From Sediminibacterium magnilacihabitans (lineage in GTDB: Bacteria > Bacteroidota > Bacteroidia > Chitinophagales > Chitinophagaceae), in contig PVEQ01000013.1 in NCBI GenBank assembly GCA_002973575.1, positions 1-64,000 of the forward strand: DNA of 64,000 nt. Reading direction: 5' to 3'. The notes under the pieces are model-generated. The model did no database searches. It was given only the letters and a program-made list of their open reading frames with translations, and was not told the DNA's origin. Made by a program: the position numbers and the translations under genes. Below are positions 4,268-12,831 of the stretch, one piece after another. Numbering within the stretch: position 1 is the first letter of the stretch; every line of letters begins with the position of its first letter.

Positions 4268-4476
4268 TGGTGGAAGTTTTTAAAACGAATGTTGTGAAGC
4301 AGGAGCAGGCCCGTCAATTGCTGGGCCTGCTCCTGCAACGTTTTCCTTCAAGCAAGATCAATTTCGACCTGGAGGATTGCGATAAGATACTGCGCTTGGA
4401 AGGGCACGATTTCATCGTTGATGATGTGATGCGCCTGGTCAGGAGGGAAGGTTTTGCCTGCTCGGTGTTGGATTAA
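4267..4476 (+). CDS. Small protein of unknown function, coupled to the VOC gene
   Basis: 69 residues, starting in a TAATG overlap with the VOC stop codon. The sequence VKQEQARQLLGLLLQRFPSSKINFDLEDCDKILRLEG...VMRLVRREGFACSVLD (abridged) resembles the small alpha/beta heavy-metal-associated-like fold seen in hypothetical Bacteroidota proteins, but without a CxxC metal site. No function is assigned. Its last 38 bases overlap the convergent cytochrome c gene. Confidence 0.6.
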   Translation: MVEVFKTNVVKQEQARQLLGLLLQRFPSSKINFDLEDCDKILRLEGHDFIVDDVMRLVRREGFACSVLD

Positions 4477-5029
4477 GCTCATCTGATACAATATTTACAG
4501 TACCGGCTTTCATTTTACGGGCATAGGAGCGAATCTGTACTGCATATACCAACGCCTTCACCAACACCAGCACAGCACCGATGTAAACGATGAAGAAAGT
4601 GCCATCCTGCGAAGAAGGGGGCGTATAAGCTGCTCTCTTACGTCCGGGTTTGGCAAACGGCGCCTTGGCTTCTCCTTCCGACTTAGCGCTTTCCAATTTG
4701 ATATAAGCAACAACATGCTTGATGTCTTCTTCACTCAGATCGGGATGATCGGGCATGGTTACTTTATTGAACTTTTCAAATAAGGCCGTTGCGTCCTTAT
4801 CGCCTTTACGGATCATCCCCTGTGAAGAGTGTACGAAGCCAATGATCCACTCGATCGGGTGGCGCTGATCTACTCCTCCGAGAGAAGGGCCAACCACTAC
4901 CTTATTCACTGCATGGCAGGCGCCACAGCGTGCATTGAAGATCGTTTTACCATGATCGGTATCACCGGCTTTTGCTTGTTGCAGCCATCCGGCAAGACAG
5001 AACCATAAGAAGAAAGTTAGTCTTTTCAC
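4439..5029 (-). CDS. Membrane-anchored cytochrome c, oxidase operon
   Basis: 196 residues. Signal peptide 1-21 (cleavage near AKA), then a class I cytochrome c domain with heme site Cys35-Gly-Ala-Cys38-His39 and likely axial Met92 in TMPDHPDLSEED. A proline/basic linker leads to one membrane helix at about 145-168 and a short cytoplasmic tail, an unusual C-terminal anchor. It is the last gene of the ba3-oxidase operon, 11 bases after the SCO gene, so it probably brings electrons to the CuA site of subunit II. The 3' end overlaps the small gene on the other strand. Confidence 0.88.
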   Translation of the reverse strand: MKRLTFFLWFCLAGWLQQAKAGDTDHGKTIFNARCGACHAVNKVVVGPSLGGVDQRHPIEWIIGFVHSSQGMIRKGDKDATALFEKFNKVTMPDHPDLSEEDIKHVVAYIKLESAKSEGEAKAPFAKPGRKRAAYTPPSSQDGTFFIVYIGAVLVLVKALVYAVQIRSYARKMKAGTVNIVSDELNPTPSRQNLPS

Positions 5030-5040
5030 TTTTAGAACTT

Positions 5041-5682
5041 TTAATCTTGAACATTCAATTTTCTTATATCCGCAATCAGCTGTTGTACTTCTGCATCATC
5101 TGTTCCGGTATAATATCCCCGGATTCTTTTCTGCTGATCAATGAGTACCAGCTTTTCCGTATGAATAAAATCTGTTGGCCCGCCATCGCCATCTGTTGCC
5201 ACCACCATGAAACTGTTACGGGCCAGTTTATAGATATCTTTTTTACGCCCTGTTAGCAATTGCCAGTTACGGGTATCCAGACCGAAGCGGACAGCGTACT
5301 GTTTCAACGCTGTCGCGCTGTCGCGTTCCGGATCAACTGTAAAAGAGCAAAACAATAACCGGTTACTGGAGCGATAGTGTTCCTGTATTTTTTTCAAACT
5401 GGCGGTAAGTTTGGGGCAAATAGCCGGACAATGCGTGAAGAAAAAATCCACTACCACTACTTTGTCTTTCCACTCACCGGCCGACACCATATCCCCTTCC
5501 TGGTTCACCAGCCTGAAGTCTGCAATGGTATGCTGCCATTGCCTGCCTGCGCTGTCTGTTGCCGGTCCCAGTACCGGCAAAGTCTGAACCCTGCTCTCAT
5601 ACCAATCCATTCCCACCCAGGCGATTGCCGGTATTACAAAGACCAATATCACAAAAAACCATATCGTCTTTTTAGTTCTCAT
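5041..5682 (-). CDS. SCO1/SenC copper chaperone
   Basis: 213 residues with an N-terminal membrane anchor (about 7-26) and a periplasmic thioredoxin fold. The copper ligands are present: Cys85 and Cys89 in THCPAICP and His174 in DFIHTEKLVLID. SCO proteins deliver copper to, or reduce, the CuA centre of cytochrome oxidase subunit II. Its start overlaps the stop of the subunit I gene by 4 bases, and a CuA subunit is encoded two genes upstream, fitting that role. Confidence 0.93.
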   Translation of the reverse strand: MRTKKTIWFFVILVFVIPAIAWVGMDWYESRVQTLPVLGPATDSAGRQWQHTIADFRLVNQEGDMVSAGEWKDKVVVVDFFFTHCPAICPKLTASLKKIQEHYRSSNRLLFCSFTVDPERDSATALKQYAVRFGLDTRNWQLLTGRKKDIYKLARNSFMVVATDGDGGPTDFIHTEKLVLIDQQKRIRGYYTGTDDAEVQQLIADIRKLNVQD

Positions 5683-7382
5683 TTGTTGTCACTTGCAAGC
5701 GGTGTGGGGTTATCGATATTGAATCGGGGAGCGCCCGGTCCGCTGTTCTTATTAACATTGATCAAAGCAGGCGTATAAGCCAGTACCAATATGATGATCA
5801 TGGCAATGATCCAGGGTTTGAACTGGTCGAACAAAGGCACTCTTTTTTCATCGTGATAAGCTTCGCTTACCGGAATTTCCAGCGAGCCTGCTGCTTTTCT
5901 CTTCCGCAGAATGGTTCCGAAGAAAGCTATAATAAACAACATGCCGGCAGTGAACATTACAATGCCCCCCATCATGGCCAGTGTGGTCGTAGGAACCCAG
6001 TCGCTGCGGAATAATTCGCTCTTAGGGTTGAGATAACTGATGCCCAGGTTGGTCCTTCTTGGTTCTCCGCGCAACCCTCCCCAGCTCATACCGAAAGAAA
6101 AGACCAGCATACCCATCATCCACAAATAGGGAACGATGGTAACGATCTTACGCATGAATACCGGTTTTCCACTCATACCTGAATAGAGATACAGGCTCAT
6201 ACCCACAATAGCAAGGAATACCGGTCCGGCTACCGTCATGTGAAAATGCCCGGGTAACCATGCTGTATTGTGCACTACTGTATTCAGGGAATAAGAAGCA
6301 TTGATGATACCGGTAACGCCACCGAAAATAAAAAGGATGAGTCCGCATATAAAATAAGAGAACAGGAAATTGTTTTCATCGAACCAGGGTAGTTTTTTCA
6401 TCCATCCGAACAATCCTTTCGCGCCTCTTTGTCTTCCTGCATATTCCAGTGATGCTGCTAATGTAAACGCAGTGATGAAACTGGGAATAGTTACGCCATA
6501 GGTAAGCATTCCCTGGAAAAATTTAACTCCTTGTGTAATGGAAGGATCGCTGTATTGATGGTGCACACCTACGGGAACAGAGAAGAGCAGGAACAGGAAC
6601 AGCGCCATTCTGCCGGCCAGATCAGAGTAGAGCTTTCCGCCCGCCACTTTAGGCAAAATGGTATAGAACATGATATAAGCCGGTAACAACCAGAAATACA
6701 CCAGTGCGTGGCCAAAGAACCAGAACAGGGTCCTGGCGAGGGCCACATTTACAGTGGTTGTCCAGCCCAGCGACCAGGGTACCAGTAATACCAATACCTC
6801 ATATGCCACTGCCAGGGTGCACACAAACCAAATGGTGAAATTTATCAATGTACCGATAACAGCCAACGGCGTCTTGGTTTCGGCATGAACTTTCTTCCAT
6901 TGCGTGTACATCACGGCCCAGTTAAAAAAAGGCACCCAGGATCCTACGATGAGCAATGCCGTTCCGATATAAAACAAAGGATGCGCTTTCAATGGCGGGT
7001 AAAAAGTATACAATACCGATGCTTTTCCTGCCAGCATGGCCCAGGATGCCATCAACGTTCCGCCCAGCATCAGTGCAAAGCTGAACCACATTAATTTTTT
7101 ATTAGGCTCCTGTTTGAGGTAATAGGTCATGGTGGCGTGACCGAACGCTACTGCAAAAAAAGTTGTAAGCACAATGGCGTTGATCACACCATGCAGGGTC
7201 AGGCCCTGGTAATAACCCAGTTTGGCAAAAGAAGTGTCCTGTAACACACCGGCACGGTAAATGGTTTGCATCAGTCCGTGGTAGATACCAATGATCAGCA
7301 GCGCAACGGGGATGGACAATTCCAGGAAAATGATTCGTTTAAAAGTCTTTGATACTTGCATGACGTTGGTTTTACTTAGCAT
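5679..7382 (-). CDS. ba3-type cytochrome c oxidase subunit I
   Basis: 567 residues, about 13 membrane helices; reduces O2 to water and pumps protons. It follows the Thermus ba3 (B-family) pattern: low-spin heme ligands His64 and His381, high-spin heme ligand His379 (PGHFHM), CuB ligands His225, His274 and His275 (VHHQ), and Tyr229 in GHALVYFWLLP, the residue cross-linked to a CuB His in true O2 reductases. That Tyr argues against a nitric-oxide reductase. The listed start overlaps the subunit II stop by 11 bases; an ATG at 7361 (MQVSKTF) is equally possible. High-affinity oxidases of this type suit low oxygen. Confidence 0.95.
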   Translation of the reverse strand: MLSKTNVMQVSKTFKRIIFLELSIPVALLIIGIYHGLMQTIYRAGVLQDTSFAKLGYYQGLTLHGVINAIVLTTFFAVAFGHATMTYYLKQEPNKKLMWFSFALMLGGTLMASWAMLAGKASVLYTFYPPLKAHPLFYIGTALLIVGSWVPFFNWAVMYTQWKKVHAETKTPLAVIGTLINFTIWFVCTLAVAYEVLVLLVPWSLGWTTTVNVALARTLFWFFGHALVYFWLLPAYIMFYTILPKVAGGKLYSDLAGRMALFLFLLFSVPVGVHHQYSDPSITQGVKFFQGMLTYGVTIPSFITAFTLAASLEYAGRQRGAKGLFGWMKKLPWFDENNFLFSYFICGLILFIFGGVTGIINASYSLNTVVHNTAWLPGHFHMTVAGPVFLAIVGMSLYLYSGMSGKPVFMRKIVTIVPYLWMMGMLVFSFGMSWGGLRGEPRRTNLGISYLNPKSELFRSDWVPTTTLAMMGGIVMFTAGMLFIIAFFGTILRKRKAAGSLEIPVSEAYHDEKRVPLFDQFKPWIIAMIIILVLAYTPALINVNKNSGPGAPRFNIDNPTPLASDNK

Positions 7383-7841: not shown

Positions 7842-7964
7842 TTAGGTTCTGTTAATCATTAAAAAATAAATACTGTACCAGAAGATCAGAGCCAGCACTA
7901 CGAGCGCAATGAAAAATGCGATGGCGCCGGAAGGGAAGAAGGGTTTTTCGTTCGATGCATCCAT
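7842..7964 (-). CDS. ba3-type oxidase subunit IIa (40-residue single-helix protein)
   Basis: ATG at 7964-7962, TAA at 7844-7842. The protein starts MDASNEKPFFPSGAIAFF and has a single membrane helix (about 14-36, with FWYSIYFL). It has the layout of Thermus ba3 subunit IIa, a tiny single-helix protein with an EKP...GA...L-rich...FW..Y pattern that completes the two-helix topology of subunit II. Its place directly before the subunit II gene, first in the operon, is the usual order. It is short enough to be missed by gene callers; the match is by pattern and position. Confidence 0.82.
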   Translation of the reverse strand: MDASNEKPFFPSGAIAFFIALVVLALIFWYSIYFLMINRT

Positions 7965-7993
7965 AAATTGAAGTATTGCTGAAAATGATTGCA

Positions 7994-8001
7994 CAAAACT
8001 A
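7994..8001 (-). promoter_or_regulatory. Putative -7 promoter element of the oxidase operon
   Basis: Read leftward the sequence is TAGTTTTG, matching the Bacteroidota TAnnTTTG element at all fixed positions. It lies 30 bases before the subunit IIa ATG, so transcription would start near 7990. No convincing -33 TTTG was seen, which fits an activator-dependent promoter. Confidence 0.5.
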
Positions 8002-8046
8002 TTCAGACCCCGCTGCGTTAAGCATGACCTGGGGGATTTAGAACAC

Positions 8047-8060
8047 CTGATTTTAATCAG
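8047..8060. promoter_or_regulatory. CRP/FNR-type palindrome between oxidase operon and hemN
   Basis: CTGATTTTAATCAG contains TGAT-N4-ATCA, the half-sites of FNR-type boxes (TTGAT-N4-ATCAA) and the TGA-N6-TCA core shared with CRP. Its centre is about 63 bases upstream of the predicted oxidase start site (class I spacing is near 61.5) and about 110 bases upstream of the hemN ATG, so it could serve both directions. A CRP/FNR-type response regulator is encoded at 11776-12831. The assignment is inferred from pattern and spacing. Confidence 0.6.
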
Positions 8061-8163
8061 TTGGCATCTTGAGGTGGGTCAGTTTTATCCCGGGCTGATG
8101 AATATCTGTTGCATTACTAACATCCGTCACCTGCTGCACAAAAAGTCAATGTTAGTTTTGGGC

Positions 8164-9543
8164 ATGATGAATGAAATAACCATACCTCCTTTGTTGATCA
8201 AGAAATACAACCAGCCTGTTCCGCGTTACACCAGTTATCCAACCGTTCCTTTCTGGCAGAATATTATTTCCCGGCCTCAATGGACCGACCGGTTCCAGCA
8301 AGAGTTCTCACTCGAAAATGTGCGCAACGGAATCAGCATATACATACACCTTCCTTTTTGCGAATCACTGTGTACTTATTGTGGTTGCAATAAAAAAATA
8401 ACTTCCAATCATGCAGTGGAAGAGCCCTATTTGCAGGCCATAGAAAAAGAATGGAAACTTTACAGGGGGCTGATGCAGCAAACACCGGTGATCAGGGAAC
8501 TACACCTGGGCGGCGGCACGCCTACTTTCTTTTCTCCGCTGAACCTGCGCCGGCTAATTAACACTATACTAAAGAACAGCATCGTACACCCCATGCATGA
8601 ATTCAGCATTGAAGGTCACCCGAATAATACCACACCGGAGCATTTGAAAGTACTCGCGTCTTTGGGATTCAAACGCATCAGCTATGGCGTGCAGGACATG
8701 GATCCGGAAGTGCAACGCGTTATCAACCGGATACAACCGTTTGCAAACGTGCAACATGCAACAGAGGAGGCGAGAAAAGCAGGCTTTAGTTCTGTGAATT
8801 TTGATCTCATTTATGGCTTGCCGCTGCAAACAGCAGCAGGACTGCGAAACACTTTCAACCAGGTACTGGCCCTGAAACCCGACAGGATCGCTTTCTATAG
8901 TTATGCGCATGTTCCCTGGACCAGTAAAATGCAGCGGCTATTCAACGAATCGCAACTGCCGGCTCCGGAAGAGAAAATGCAACTGTACCTGGAAGGCAGG
9001 TCTTTATTGATAAATAATGGCTATCATGATATTGGCATGGATCATTTTGCATTGCCCAACGACTCCCTGTTCCTGGCCAAAGAAAAAGGCAAGCTGCACC
9101 GTAATTTTATGGGATACACTACGCAAAATAATGAGTTCCTGGTGGGACTCGGTGTATCCGCTATCAGCGATATCGGTAATGCCTTCGCCCAGAACGAAAA
9201 GAGCCTGCATGATTATTATCATGCTATCAGCAATGGCATGCTGGCAGTAAAAAAGGGGTATTTCCTCAATAAAGAGGACCTTCATTTCAGGCGTTATATC
9301 AAAGAGATTACCTGTAACGGCTCCACATCATTCAATAAAGAAGATAGGGACCCCTTGGGGACTTATTCTTTTCCGGTACTGGCTCAATTGCAAAAAGACG
9401 GGCTGGTCGATTATGATCTGAAAGGCGCTTCGCTTACAGCAATTGGTCATTATTTTATCCGCAATGTCTGTAGCGCTTTCGACATGTACCTACAAAGAAG
9501 AACGGCCGCAGATGGCAGAACATTATTCAGCAAGGCTATATAA
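8164..9543 (+). CDS. hemN: Oxygen-independent coproporphyrinogen III dehydrogenase (radical SAM)
   Basis: 459 residues from ATG 8164 (8167 is an alternative; the frame is open to 8074 but homology starts near IKKYNQPVPRYTSYPTVPFW, the conserved HemN N-terminus). The radical-SAM [4Fe-4S] site is Cys66-x3-Cys70-x2-Cys73 with the HemN-specific fourth Cys75 (CESLCTYCGC). It oxidatively decarboxylates coproporphyrinogen III to protoporphyrinogen IX without O2, so heme synthesis continues at low oxygen. A CRP/FNR-type box lies about 110 bases upstream, and the divergent operon encodes a heme-containing low-oxygen oxidase. Confidence 0.95.
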   Translation: MMNEITIPPLLIKKYNQPVPRYTSYPTVPFWQNIISRPQWTDRFQQEFSLENVRNGISIYIHLPFCESLCTYCGCNKKITSNHAVEEPYLQAIEKEWKLYRGLMQQTPVIRELHLGGGTPTFFSPLNLRRLINTILKNSIVHPMHEFSIEGHPNNTTPEHLKVLASLGFKRISYGVQDMDPEVQRVINRIQPFANVQHATEEARKAGFSSVNFDLIYGLPLQTAAGLRNTFNQVLALKPDRIAFYSYAHVPWTSKMQRLFNESQLPAPEEKMQLYLEGRSLLINNGYHDIGMDHFALPNDSLFLAKEKGKLHRNFMGYTTQNNEFLVGLGVSAISDIGNAFAQNEKSLHDYYHAISNGMLAVKKGYFLNKEDLHFRRYIKEITCNGSTSFNKEDRDPLGTYSFPVLAQLQKDGLVDYDLKGASLTAIGHYFIRNVCSAFDMYLQRRTAADGRTLFSKAI

Positions 9544-9661: not shown

Positions 9662-9675
9662 ATGATCTTTATCAG
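9662..9675. promoter_or_regulatory. CRP/FNR-type palindrome upstream of ric
   Basis: ATGATCTTTATCAG contains TGAT-N4-ATCA, the same half-sites as the box at 8047-8060. A -7-like TTATTTTG lies at 9698-9705, placing the predicted start site near 9709 and the box centre at about -41, the class II activator position. NO- and low-oxygen-responsive ric/ytfE genes are commonly controlled by CRP/FNR-family proteins. Confidence 0.58.
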
Positions 9676-9710
9676 GATGGATGGAAATAAGTGCTTTTAT
9701 TTTTGTTTTT

Positions 9711-10481
9711 ATGACGTCGTTCAACATTCCAGGCAAGGAAGACCAGTTGCCTCTGATAAATAAAAAAATGCCTGTTACGGATATTGTGCAGAAAGATTAT
9801 CGCACAGCCGATGTGTTTCTCAAATACGATATCGAATTCTGTTGCGGAGGCAAGTGGCCGTTGGAAATAGTGTGCGAATCCAAGCAACTGGATACCAACA
9901 GTGTATTGTGTGAATTGGAAGAAGCCTGCCGGTTGATGCAACTTCCCCAGGGATGCCGGTTTGAAGATTGGAGCACCGGCTTTCTGATCGATTTCGTTCA
10001 AAATGTTTATCACCCGTATTTTAAGAGATCGCTGGAGCTAGCCGTCAACTATACCAATCGCTTCCTGGAAGGGCACCTCAAAAAATTTCCAGAGTTAGAA
10101 AAAATGAGAGAGATTCTTGACAAGCTGTCGTTGGTCGTCAACAAACGCATGAACAACGAGGAAGAGTCGTTCTTTCCTTATATCAAACAGGTTACCAATG
10201 CCTATCTGCGCAATGAATCGTATGCAGGACTGCTGGTAAAAACATTGCGCAAACCTTGGCAGGAAACTATGCATCAGGAATACAGCGAAGCAATCAAATG
10301 GTTAGATGAACTGCGTTCTGTCACAAAAGATTATTATTTACCTGGCAATGCCTGTACCACACACCGTGTTAGTTTTTTAAAATTGCAGGAGCTGGATCAT
10401 GAACTCACACGATACCTGCAATTAGAGCATACCATATTATTACCCAGGGTTGTTCAGGTGGAACAGGCCCTTCTGGCCTGA
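9711..10481 (+). CDS. ric: RIC/ScdA/YtfE-type di-iron protein (iron-sulfur cluster repair)
   Basis: 256 residues from ATG 9711; ATG 9768 (MPVTDIVQKDY) is a likely alternative because family homology begins there and the predicted start site is near 9709. An N-terminal ScdA_N domain holds the CCGG motif in YDIEFCCGGKWPL (adjacent cysteines). The rest is a hemerythrin-like four-helix bundle whose His and Glu residues (NVYHPYF, EEESFFPY, TMHQEY, ACTTHR, LDHEL, LEHTIL) would bind two irons. RIC proteins restore iron-sulfur clusters damaged by nitric oxide or oxidants. It lies between hemN and the two-component genes, its stop overlapping the following frame. Confidence 0.9.
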   Translation: MTSFNIPGKEDQLPLINKKMPVTDIVQKDYRTADVFLKYDIEFCCGGKWPLEIVCESKQLDTNSVLCELEEACRLMQLPQGCRFEDWSTGFLIDFVQNVYHPYFKRSLELAVNYTNRFLEGHLKKFPELEKMREILDKLSLVVNKRMNNEEESFFPYIKQVTNAYLRNESYAGLLVKTLRKPWQETMHQEYSEAIKWLDELRSVTKDYYLPGNACTTHRVSFLKLQELDHELTRYLQLEHTILLPRVVQVEQALLA

Positions 10482-10540
10482 TGCGGGTTACAATCACTTT
10501 ATTATATTTACAAACAGATTTATTCCTACATATTTGCTCT

Positions 10541-11779
10541 ATGCTGGACCAGGCTCACATGACGTCTTTATTCGAGAATGCTACCGAAGGCATCATCCTC
10601 ACGGGGCACGATGGGAATATTGTGCTCCTCAACCCGGCGGCAGAGCGCATGTTTGGTTACCAGAACAAGGAGATCATTGGCCAACCTGTTGAAATTCTAA
10701 TTCCCGCCCAGTTCAAAGCACACCATCATAAGCTGAGAGACGGTTTTTACCAAAAACCTTCCAACCGCGTTATGGGCCAAGGACGAGATTTGTTTGGCAG
10801 AAAAAAAGACGGCTCAGATATTCCCGTTGAAGTGAGCCTGAGTCATTATAAAAAAGACGACGAACTGTTCGTGATCGCCTTTATCGTAGACATTACACGC
10901 CGGAAAGAGATTGAACAGAATATGCTGGAGCAGCAAAAAGAACTGCAAAAAGTATCTACCGAGATCAGGAAGCTGAACGCCGAGCTGGAAGTGAAGGTAG
11001 AAGAACGAACGGTTATCCTTAAAGAAGCCCTTCAAAAACTGGAACAGTCGCAAAGAGAGCTGAGTGAAGCGCTTGACAAAGAAAAACAATTGAGTGAGAT
11101 CAAGAGCCGCTTTGTTTCCATGGCTTCGCATGAATTCAGAACGCCTCTCAGCACTGTTTTATCTTCCGCTTCGCTATTAGCTAAATATACCACTACCGAA
11201 GAGCAGGAAAAACGGAGCAGGCATATCGATAAGATCAAAAGCTCTGTACGTCACCTGAATGATATACTGGAAGATTTTTTATCCCTCGGAAAGCTGGATG
11301 AAGGAAAAGTAGCAATATCCATTTCAGGATTTGATCTCAAATCATTCATCGATGACACCACGGAAGATATGAAGGGTCTGCTGAAAAAAGGGCAGCATAT
11401 CCGGGTAGATTATACCGGAGAGCATTTCATTCATTCTGATAAAAAATTATTGCGGAATATTATCATTAACCTCATTACCAATGCCATTAAGTTTTCCGAT
11501 GAAGACAGTGGTATCAGCATACAGACCTCCGTTAACGATGAAATTGCCTCCATTAGTGTAGCTGATCATGGTATCGGTATTGCACCTGAAGACCAGGTGC
11601 ATTTATTCTCCAGTTTCTTCCGGGGAGCCAATGCCAACAATATTGCCGGTACCGGGATGGGGCTGCATATTGTGAAACGCTATACCGATCTGCTGCAAGG
11701 TCAAACAAAATTGGAAAGTGAACTCCAAAAAGGAACACGTGTAACCATATCCATTCCTGTAAATCATCCTGCTTCATGA
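10541..11779 (+). CDS. PAS-domain histidine kinase
   Basis: 412 residues from ATG 10541 (MLDQAHMTSLFENATEG); the upstream ATG at 10481 adds 20 unlikely residues. No membrane helix, so cytoplasmic. PAS domain at 5-122, coiled coil 122-190, phosphoacceptor His197 in FVSMASHEFRTPLS, N-box near Asn310/Asn314, G1 box DHGIGI (342-347), G2 box GTGMGLH (370-376). The PAS sequence IPAQFKAHH...GQGRDLFGRKKDG (gap shown) aligns by eye with the FixL heme-PAS region, with His62 at the heme-ligand position and Arg82 at the O2-contact position; similar residues also occur in non-heme PAS domains. Its stop overlaps the next gene by 4 bases, so the regulator is its cognate partner. Confidence 0.9.
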   Translation: MLDQAHMTSLFENATEGIILTGHDGNIVLLNPAAERMFGYQNKEIIGQPVEILIPAQFKAHHHKLRDGFYQKPSNRVMGQGRDLFGRKKDGSDIPVEVSLSHYKKDDELFVIAFIVDITRRKEIEQNMLEQQKELQKVSTEIRKLNAELEVKVEERTVILKEALQKLEQSQRELSEALDKEKQLSEIKSRFVSMASHEFRTPLSTVLSSASLLAKYTTTEEQEKRSRHIDKIKSSVRHLNDILEDFLSLGKLDEGKVAISISGFDLKSFIDDTTEDMKGLLKKGQHIRVDYTGEHFIHSDKKLLRNIIINLITNAIKFSDEDSGISIQTSVNDEIASISVADHGIGIAPEDQVHLFSSFFRGANANNIAGTGMGLHIVKRYTDLLQGQTKLESELQKGTRVTISIPVNHPAS

Positions 11780-12831
11780 AAACCATCTTAGTCATCGACG
11801 ATAATACAGACATACGCGACAATACTGCGGAAATCCTGGAAATGTCCGGTTACAAAACATTTACTGCCGAAAACGGTAAGAAGGGTGTAGAGGTAGCCAT
11901 CAGGGAAAAGCCAGACCTGATCGTTTGCGATATTATGATGCCCGAGCTCGATGGATATGGAGTACTGCACCTGCTCCGCAAAAACCCCGAGACGCAATTC
12001 ACCCCCTTTATTTTTCTTACAGCCAAAACAGAGCGTGCCGATCTTAGGAAAGGTATGGAGATGGGGGCTGATGATTATATCACGAAGCCTTTTGAAGACA
12101 TTGAACTGCTCAATGCTATTGAAGTGAGGCTGAAAAAAATACAGTTCCTGGGACATCATTACGCTATGTCGCCATCCGGCATCAGCCAGTTCCTGAAAGA
12201 TGTAAAAGATACAGGGAGTTTTGGTCAGCTGGCAGAGCAATACAGCATCGAAACATACAGCAAAAAACAACCTTTATATCATGAGGGCAAGCGCCCCCGC
12301 TATCTCTATTACCTCGTAAGGGGCAAGGTGAAAGCTTTTAAAATACATGAAGACGGCAAAGAATATATTACCGATATTCTCAGCGATGGCGATTTCATCG
12401 GATACCATGCATTGATCAATGATTCGAATTATGCAGACAGTACCCTGATACTGGAGGAAGCGGAGATCATGCAGATCCCCAGGGAAGACTTTTTGCAGAT
12501 GATCTATAAAGACATCCAGGTAGCCGCCAAATTCATACACATCATTACACAAAACATTAAAGAGAAAGAAGAAAGGCTTATCAGCCTGGCTTACAGTTCT
12601 CTCAGAAAACGTGTAGCAAAAGCCCTGGTAGATATTCATAGTAAATACAACAGCAATGGGGGTTCGAACCCCATTGAAATATCCCGGGACGATATTGCGC
12701 ATTACATTGGTACTGCAACGGAATCACTCATTCGCACCCTCAGCGATTTTAAAGCAGAAAAACTGATACAGATCAAAGAAAGCAAGATCATCATTACCGA
12801 TATCGGCAAGTTGCAGAACCTGTTGTATTAA
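11776..12831 (+). CDS. Response regulator fused to a CRP/FNR-type transcription factor
   Basis: 351 residues. REC domain 1-120 with acidic pocket Asp8/Asp9, phosphorylation site Asp52 (CDIMMP), Thr82 and Lys104. Residues 155-270 form a cNMP-binding-like beta barrel (KQPLYHEGKRPRYLYYLVRGKVKAF), and 275-345 a CRP-type winged helix with recognition helix TATESLIRTL carrying Glu316 and Arg320, the pair that reads TGA in CRP/FNR sites. It lacks the cysteine cluster of Fe-S FNR (only one Cys, in REC), so it should be controlled by phosphorylation from the kinase encoded just upstream (ATGA overlap), possibly plus a ligand. Likely targets are the TGAT-N4-ATCA boxes at 8047 and 9662. Confidence 0.9.
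   Translation: MKTILVIDDNTDIRDNTAEILEMSGYKTFTAENGKKGVEVAIREKPDLIVCDIMMPELDGYGVLHLLRKNPETQFTPFIFLTAKTERADLRKGMEMGADDYITKPFEDIELLNAIEVRLKKIQFLGHHYAMSPSGISQFLKDVKDTGSFGQLAEQYSIETYSKKQPLYHEGKRPRYLYYLVRGKVKAFKIHEDGKEYITDILSDGDFIGYHALINDSNYADSTLILEEAEIMQIPREDFLQMIYKDIQVAAKFIHIITQNIKEKEERLISLAYSSLRKRVAKALVDIHSKYNSNGGSNPIEISRDDIAHYIGTATESLIRTLSDFKAEKLIQIKESKIIITDIGKLQNLLY

Follow-up and report, generated by a model that had tools for sequence, protein, structure and literature searches.

The oxidase operon of Sediminibacterium magnilacihabitans is preceded by a row of CRP/FNR-type sites centred at −41.5, −64.5, and −86.5 with a spacing of about 22 bp, in which the palindrome at 8047–8060 is the middle member. 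As judged by comparison of genome sequences, such rows recur at matching positions ahead of genes for respiration and heme synthesis throughout a large bacterial family of soils and waters, and their reader is probably a neighbouring oxygen-sensing two-component switch. We hold, with a probability of roughly three in four, that a row of dimers of a response regulator with a CRP-type output (hereafter REC-CRP) activates the ba3 oxidase operon under the control of a FixL-like sensor of low oxygen.

The CRP-type row at the oxidase promoter

The locus lies in a window of 64,000 nucleotides, the whole stretch of DNA that was analysed, and its features are collected in Table 1. The oxidase is assigned to the ba3 type because its subunit I is nearest to the ba3 (type B) enzymes, the closest solved structures being 7deg (E 1e-166) and the ba3 entries 1ehk/1xme (E 1e-114), and because the CuA-bearing subunit II is short.

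Table 1. Genes, promoter elements, and CRP-type sites of the oxidase, hemN, and RIC region, numbered by position in the window
Feature	Positions	Strand	Remarks
c-type cytochrome, final gene of the oxidase operon	4439–5029	−	
SCO/SenC copper chaperone	5041–5682	−	
ba3-type oxidase subunit I	5679–7382	−	
ba3-type oxidase subunit II (CuA), 152 aa	7372–7830	−	
40-aa single-helix membrane peptide, subunit IIa-like, first gene of the oxidase operon	7842–7964	−	assigned by position and size
Oxidase −7 element TAGTTTTG	7994–8001	−	start predicted near 7989
Oxidase promoter-proximal half-site ATCCCCCAGGTCAT	8024–8037	−	centre −41.5; conserved part is the downstream TCA arm (8027–8025) only
Oxidase middle site CTGATTTTAATCAG, read CTGATTAAAATCAG in the oxidase direction	8047–8060	−	centre about −64.5, offset 59
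Oxidase distal, weaker site CTGACCCACCTCAA	8069–8082	−	22 bp beyond the 8047–8060 box, centre about −86.5
hemN −63.5 site CTGATGAATATCTG	8095–8108	+	offset 58
hemN −41.5 site CTAACATCCGTCAC	8117–8130	+	offset 36; downstream TCA arm kept
hemN −7 element TAGTTTTG	8153–8160	+	
hemN, oxygen-independent coproporphyrinogen III oxidase	8164–9543	+	predicted transcription start at or beside the ATG
RIC −63.5 site ATGACCAATCTCAA	9640–9653	+	full site, offset 58
RIC −41.5 site ATGATCTTTATCAG	9662–9675	+	full site, offset 36
RIC −7 element TATTTTTG	9698–9705	+	
RIC/ScdA-type iron-sulfur repair protein	9711–10481	+	
PAS histidine kinase, FixL-like heme PAS	10481–11779	+	heme His and O2-sensing Arg aligned
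REC-CRP response regulator	11776–12831	+	recognition helix GTATESLIRTLSDFK; gene overlaps the kinase gene

An earlier sequence-only reading had described the box with its TGAT-N4-ATCA half-sites and a leftward TAGTTTTG at 8001–7994, and both are present as described; the box is in fact CTGAT-N4-ATCAG, with perfect 5-bp arms. The TAnnTTTG element has been mapped at −12 to −5 in Flavobacterium psychrophilum (PMC9723704), and all site centres were computed with it set there, so that offsets of 36, 58, and 80 correspond to −41.5, −63.5, and −85.5. On this footing the oxidase transcript is predicted to start near 7989, leaving a leader of about 25 nt before the ATG at 7964. The centre of the box then falls at −64.5, which is 3 bp away from −61.5 and close to the −63 estimated earlier from a start near 7990.

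The box has the TGA and TCA cores, 6 bp apart, of a binding site of the CRP/FNR superfamily, and these cores are invariant in 25 operons. It departs from the strict FNR box, TTGAT-N4-ATCAA, in having C as its outer base. At the −63.5 site of 63 promoters near REC-CRP genes the outer base is C in 35, A in 17, T in 10, and G in one.

Conservation was assessed by aligning 29 family members' oxidase operons on TAnnTTTG; within the genus, a subunit II probe had found the operon in one other genome only (G010), and the comparison was hence widened to the family with subunit I as the probe. In most of the 29, a TGA-N6-TCA starts 57–59 nt upstream of the TA, often with a second one 22–23 bp further out. 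Counting TTTTG without the TA as well, 25 carry TGA-N6-TCA at offset 36 or 57–59 from the TTTTG or TAnnTTTG, and every one of these has TCA at offset 26. That TCA occupies the place of the downstream arm of the offset-36 site and is the most conserved part of the promoter besides the −7 element. The row is absent from the remaining four operons, of which genus g11 contributes three and genus g8 the fourth. The claim of a CRP/FNR-type site tied to a TAnnTTTG promoter upstream of a ba3 oxidase operon is borne out by the structure matches and the geometry.

The promoter class and the reach of the box turn out otherwise than first proposed. The sequence-only reading had envisaged lone class I activation from −61.5, with one box serving both the oxidase and hemN, and the position of the box near −64.5 and between the two genes is what such an arrangement would predict. 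A class I promoter, however, has a single site near −61.5 and none overlapping the −35 region, whereas here the −41.5 half-site is conserved in the oxidase operons of the family wherever the sole full site is that at −63.5, and the box has a partner at −86.5. Furthermore, hemN possesses a row of its own; its orthologs, most of them far from any oxidase, retain a comparable pair (CTAAC...TCAT with CTGA...TC), and the 8047 box, at offset 106 when counted from the −7 element of hemN, does not fall on the 22-bp grid. A box common to both genes was rejected on that offset and on the conserved hemN row, and we regard lone class I activation as very improbable. By position, with starts predicted from TAnnTTTG at −12 to −5, the promoter is of the class II or tandem (class III-like) kind.

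Transcripts of hemN and RIC seem to have almost no leader, their ATGs falling 3–5 nt past the −7 element and around the predicted start (8153–8170, 9698–9713). For RIC, a start codon at 9711 is likelier than one at 9681 because the promoter lies between the two. A different arrangement is seen in G010 and G265 (L170, 3999–4080; L173, 10950–11031), where one pair of sites spaced by 22 bp has a TAnnTTTG element on either side, the two pointing apart, and serves both promoters symmetrically with sites at −41.5 and −63.5.

Promoter geometry and the excess over chance

The palindrome alone is weak evidence; its excess over chance lies in the geometry. TGAT-N4-ATCA occurs 11 times in the window against 1.6 expected, mostly inside genes, and the extended CTGAT-N4-ATCAG occurs 15 times in the whole genome, many copies of the palindrome being intragenic. 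Palindrome counts were rejected as a test of function since they do not separate functional from coding copies.

A full rule combines a TAnnTTTG element with TCA at offset 26 and with five or six matching bases out of the six of TGA-N6-TCA at offset 57–59. Under this rule the window yields three matches, namely the oxidase, hemN, and RIC promoters, compared to an average of 0.05 in Markov sequences. Across this genome, gaps of 23 and 45–46 between TGA-N6-TCA and TAnnTTTG account for 16 of 37 matches. Among the 147 matches listed for 296 family genomes, which for some genomes include only the first places, gaps of 23 and 45 hold 27 each and most other bins about three. The peaks are sharpest around REC-CRP genes: in 1.13 Mb from 80 named genomes, gap 23 occurs 53 times and gap 45 occurs 63 times against about one elsewhere, while a reversed control gives 0–1 at either gap. 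The relatives in this sample are not independent, many genera are covered, and both peaks are a single base wide. Within it, 38 promoters have both full sites. The TCA half-site at offset 26 accompanies 17 of 25 gap-45 sites and one of 29 controls. The supposition that these are chance palindromes, TGAT-N4-ATCA being over-represented in this genome, draws on the many copies inside genes; set against single-base peaks at two promoter distances, a flat control, and conservation over many genera, its probability is negligible.

A longer row than usual is found in G244 (contig C333, 5091–5199), where four TGAT-N4-ATCA sites stand at an exact 22-bp spacing upstream of TACTTTTG.

The candidate regulator, its sensor, and its regulon

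The most likely reader of the row is the REC-CRP protein encoded at 11776–12831, as the sequence-only reading had proposed; its binding is inferred, and its candidacy is well supported by co-occurrence, linkage, and the recognition helix, which constitute the evidence that it targets the oxidase promoter. Pfam receiver, cNMP-type, and Crp helix-turn-helix domains, together with a CDIMMP motif, mark it as a response regulator with a CRP output. It is not a 4Fe-4S protein of the FNR kind, having a single cysteine, located in the receiver domain.

REC-CRP is present in 220 of the 296 family genomes, and these average 6.7 tandem pairs of sites per genome compared to 1.6 in the 76 that lack it (p ~4e-20). 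Its gene neighbours hemN or the oxidase much more frequently than expected by chance: of the 52 cases listed for hemN, 19 show the two genes no more than 6 kb apart, and for the oxidase the distance is at most 25 kb in 14 of 32. The cluster of RIC, kinase, and REC-CRP genes recurs. The helix TATESLIRTLSDFK occurs in this genome only in its two REC-CRP proteins and is invariant in the best 30 relatives.

This genome encodes five other CRP-family proteins as well as two weak matches. Three of the other CRP-family proteins have N-terminal cysteine clusters, and in their recognition helices the Glu/Arg spacing is preserved or nearly so. The row might be read mainly by such stand-alone FNR-like proteins (contigs C17, C5, and C10), sensing oxygen or nitric oxide directly, with REC-CRP acting elsewhere or as a second input. 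Consistent with this, all three retain the Glu and the Arg or Lys of the helix, and among genomes without REC-CRP, those with a cysteine-type FNR-like protein average 2.2 tandem pairs versus 0.8 in those without (p 0.008). Their helices (TTYETLFRIMNEL, TIYETVFKFLSEL), however, are unlike TATES-IR-LS-FK, the helix whose occurrence follows that of the rows; dense rows surround REC-CRP genes, and the presence of REC-CRP strongly predicts the number of rows. We consider this division of labour unlikely.

REC-CRP presence was nonetheless rejected as a full explanation of the tandem pairs, an FNR-like protein accounting for several exceptions. The congeners G186, G047, and G092 have 5–6 tandem pairs each although they lack REC-CRP, which means that rows of this kind can be read by a different protein. 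In these genomes (L191, L198, L199) a stand-alone protein of the FNR-like type has CxxC at its N-terminus and an almost identical recognition helix, as if regulators had been exchanged on a conserved set of sites. Often, too, a genome with tandem pairs and no REC-CRP encodes an FNR-like protein of the cysteine type whose helix is very similar. At the level of sequence, these cases support the helix as the reader of the motif and show that the receiver domain is not indispensable for such rows. In G339 (93% complete, 7% contaminated) the oxidase row is kept and REC-CRP was not detected.

The kinase encoded just upstream of REC-CRP is a predicted FixL-type heme-PAS kinase. Its PAS domain has FixL as its best PDB match (E 7e-18), and aligned with it are what we take to be the FixL residues for heme ligation (His) and O2 sensing (Arg); heme binding is predicted from this similarity and these residues, both of which are kept in most kinases linked to REC-CRP. 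In this genome, rows precede the oxidase operon, hemN, RIC, Hsp20, PPOX, and Usp genes, and in relatives they precede CcoN-, CcoS-, and CcoI-type genes and pyruvate:ferredoxin oxidoreductase, several of these being named by reading the sequence. Heme synthesis and high-affinity oxidases with the factors that assemble them are thus among the functions behind the rows, as one would expect for a low-oxygen regulon.

In relatives, the CcoN-, CcoS-, and CcoI-like genes lie behind rows close to REC-CRP at L266, L301, L305, L306, L309, L314, L318, L333, L334, L339, and L341; the type of oxidase thus varies while the control element stays constant. A second PAS kinase/REC-CRP pair is found on contig C9 of the same genome (109–128 kb; L123, L124), within a stress-gene cluster of DUF892, PPOX, two Hsp20, baeRF, Usp, BON, and P-type ATPase genes with at least five grid promoters. 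The C9 kinase keeps the heme His and has Met where FixL has Arg.

These features also bear on the nature of the signal, which for the same row and regulator could mainly be nitric oxide or redox state instead of oxygen. RIC, a protein that repairs nitric oxide damage, heads the kinase–regulator cluster, rows in relatives also precede Rrf2-type regulators, the C9 kinase lacks the sensing Arg, and heme-PAS domains can bind nitric oxide. Nevertheless, the oxidase, hemN, CcoN, CcoS, and CcoI are the classic low-oxygen set and the kinase in the window keeps both FixL residues, which leaves nitric oxide or redox an improbable main signal.

In the reading we prefer, REC-CRP dimers would occupy adjacent positions at intervals of about 22 bp, namely −41.5, where only the promoter-proximal arm would be recognised, −64.5, and −86.5. 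The −41.5 dimer would contact RNA polymerase in a class II manner and be anchored cooperatively by the stronger upstream site, and the effect would be activation rather than repression. Low oxygen is the most likely signal, presumably sensed by the FixL-like kinase, which would phosphorylate the receiver domain, and a single protein would do the job that FixJ and FixK share in rhizobia. With their own rows, hemN and the RIC–kinase–REC-CRP cluster would be induced in coordination, probably with positive feedback. A broader generalisation is tentative and somewhat less likely than not: that Chitinophagaceae and some other Bacteroidota place a low-oxygen regulon under a switch with a single step from FixL to REC-CRP, in which a cooperative 22-bp row is obligatory, receiver–receiver contacts join neighbouring dimers, and promoter strength follows the number of arms kept on a fixed −41.5/−63.5/−85.5 grid.

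Relation to known systems

Activator-dependent promoters of Bacteroidota are poorly defined, and the grid gives the placement of CRP-type sites relative to TAnnTTTG to a single base over many genera. A search of openly accessible literature turned up neither a REC-CRP/FixL system nor the site grid in Bacteroidota. The candidate regulator, sensor, and target list make oxygen control in these bacteria directly testable.

The grid is a variant of known control of the FNR/FixK type. It shares with the FNR, ANR, and FixK regulons of Proteobacteria the TGA-N6-TCA dyad core and the targets, namely a high-affinity oxidase, hemN, and iron-sulfur repair. It differs in its outer position, which is C or A rather than the T of TTGAT-N4-ATCAA, in the 22-bp row at −41.5/−63.5 on a Bacteroidota TAnnTTTG promoter, and in its regulator, which possesses a receiver domain but lacks iron-sulfur cysteines. 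In Escherichia coli, class II and class III CRP-dependent promoters with tandem sites combine a −41.5 site with one or more sites further upstream on a similar helix face. The row described here likewise has a −41.5 site and upstream site(s), but it keeps one spacing family-wide, its −41.5 site often consists of the downstream arm only, and its −7 element is of another kind. HcpR and HcpR2 of Bacteroides and Porphyromonas are also CRP/FNR-family regulators in Bacteroidota; their motif (GTAAC-N4-GTTAC for HcpR2) and their target, hcp, are different (PMC1274295). A close parallel is offered by the FixL-FixJ-FixK cascade of rhizobia (PMC4999443), with its heme-PAS kinase resembling the one here, its cysteine-free CRP-type regulator, and its oxidase and hemN targets. 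Unlike that cascade, the present system carries the receiver and CRP DNA-binding domains in one protein, without the LuxR output domain of FixJ, and a two-regulator cascade is thereby shortened to one step, which suggests that FixL-FixJ-FixK has a shortened counterpart in which these two domains are fused.
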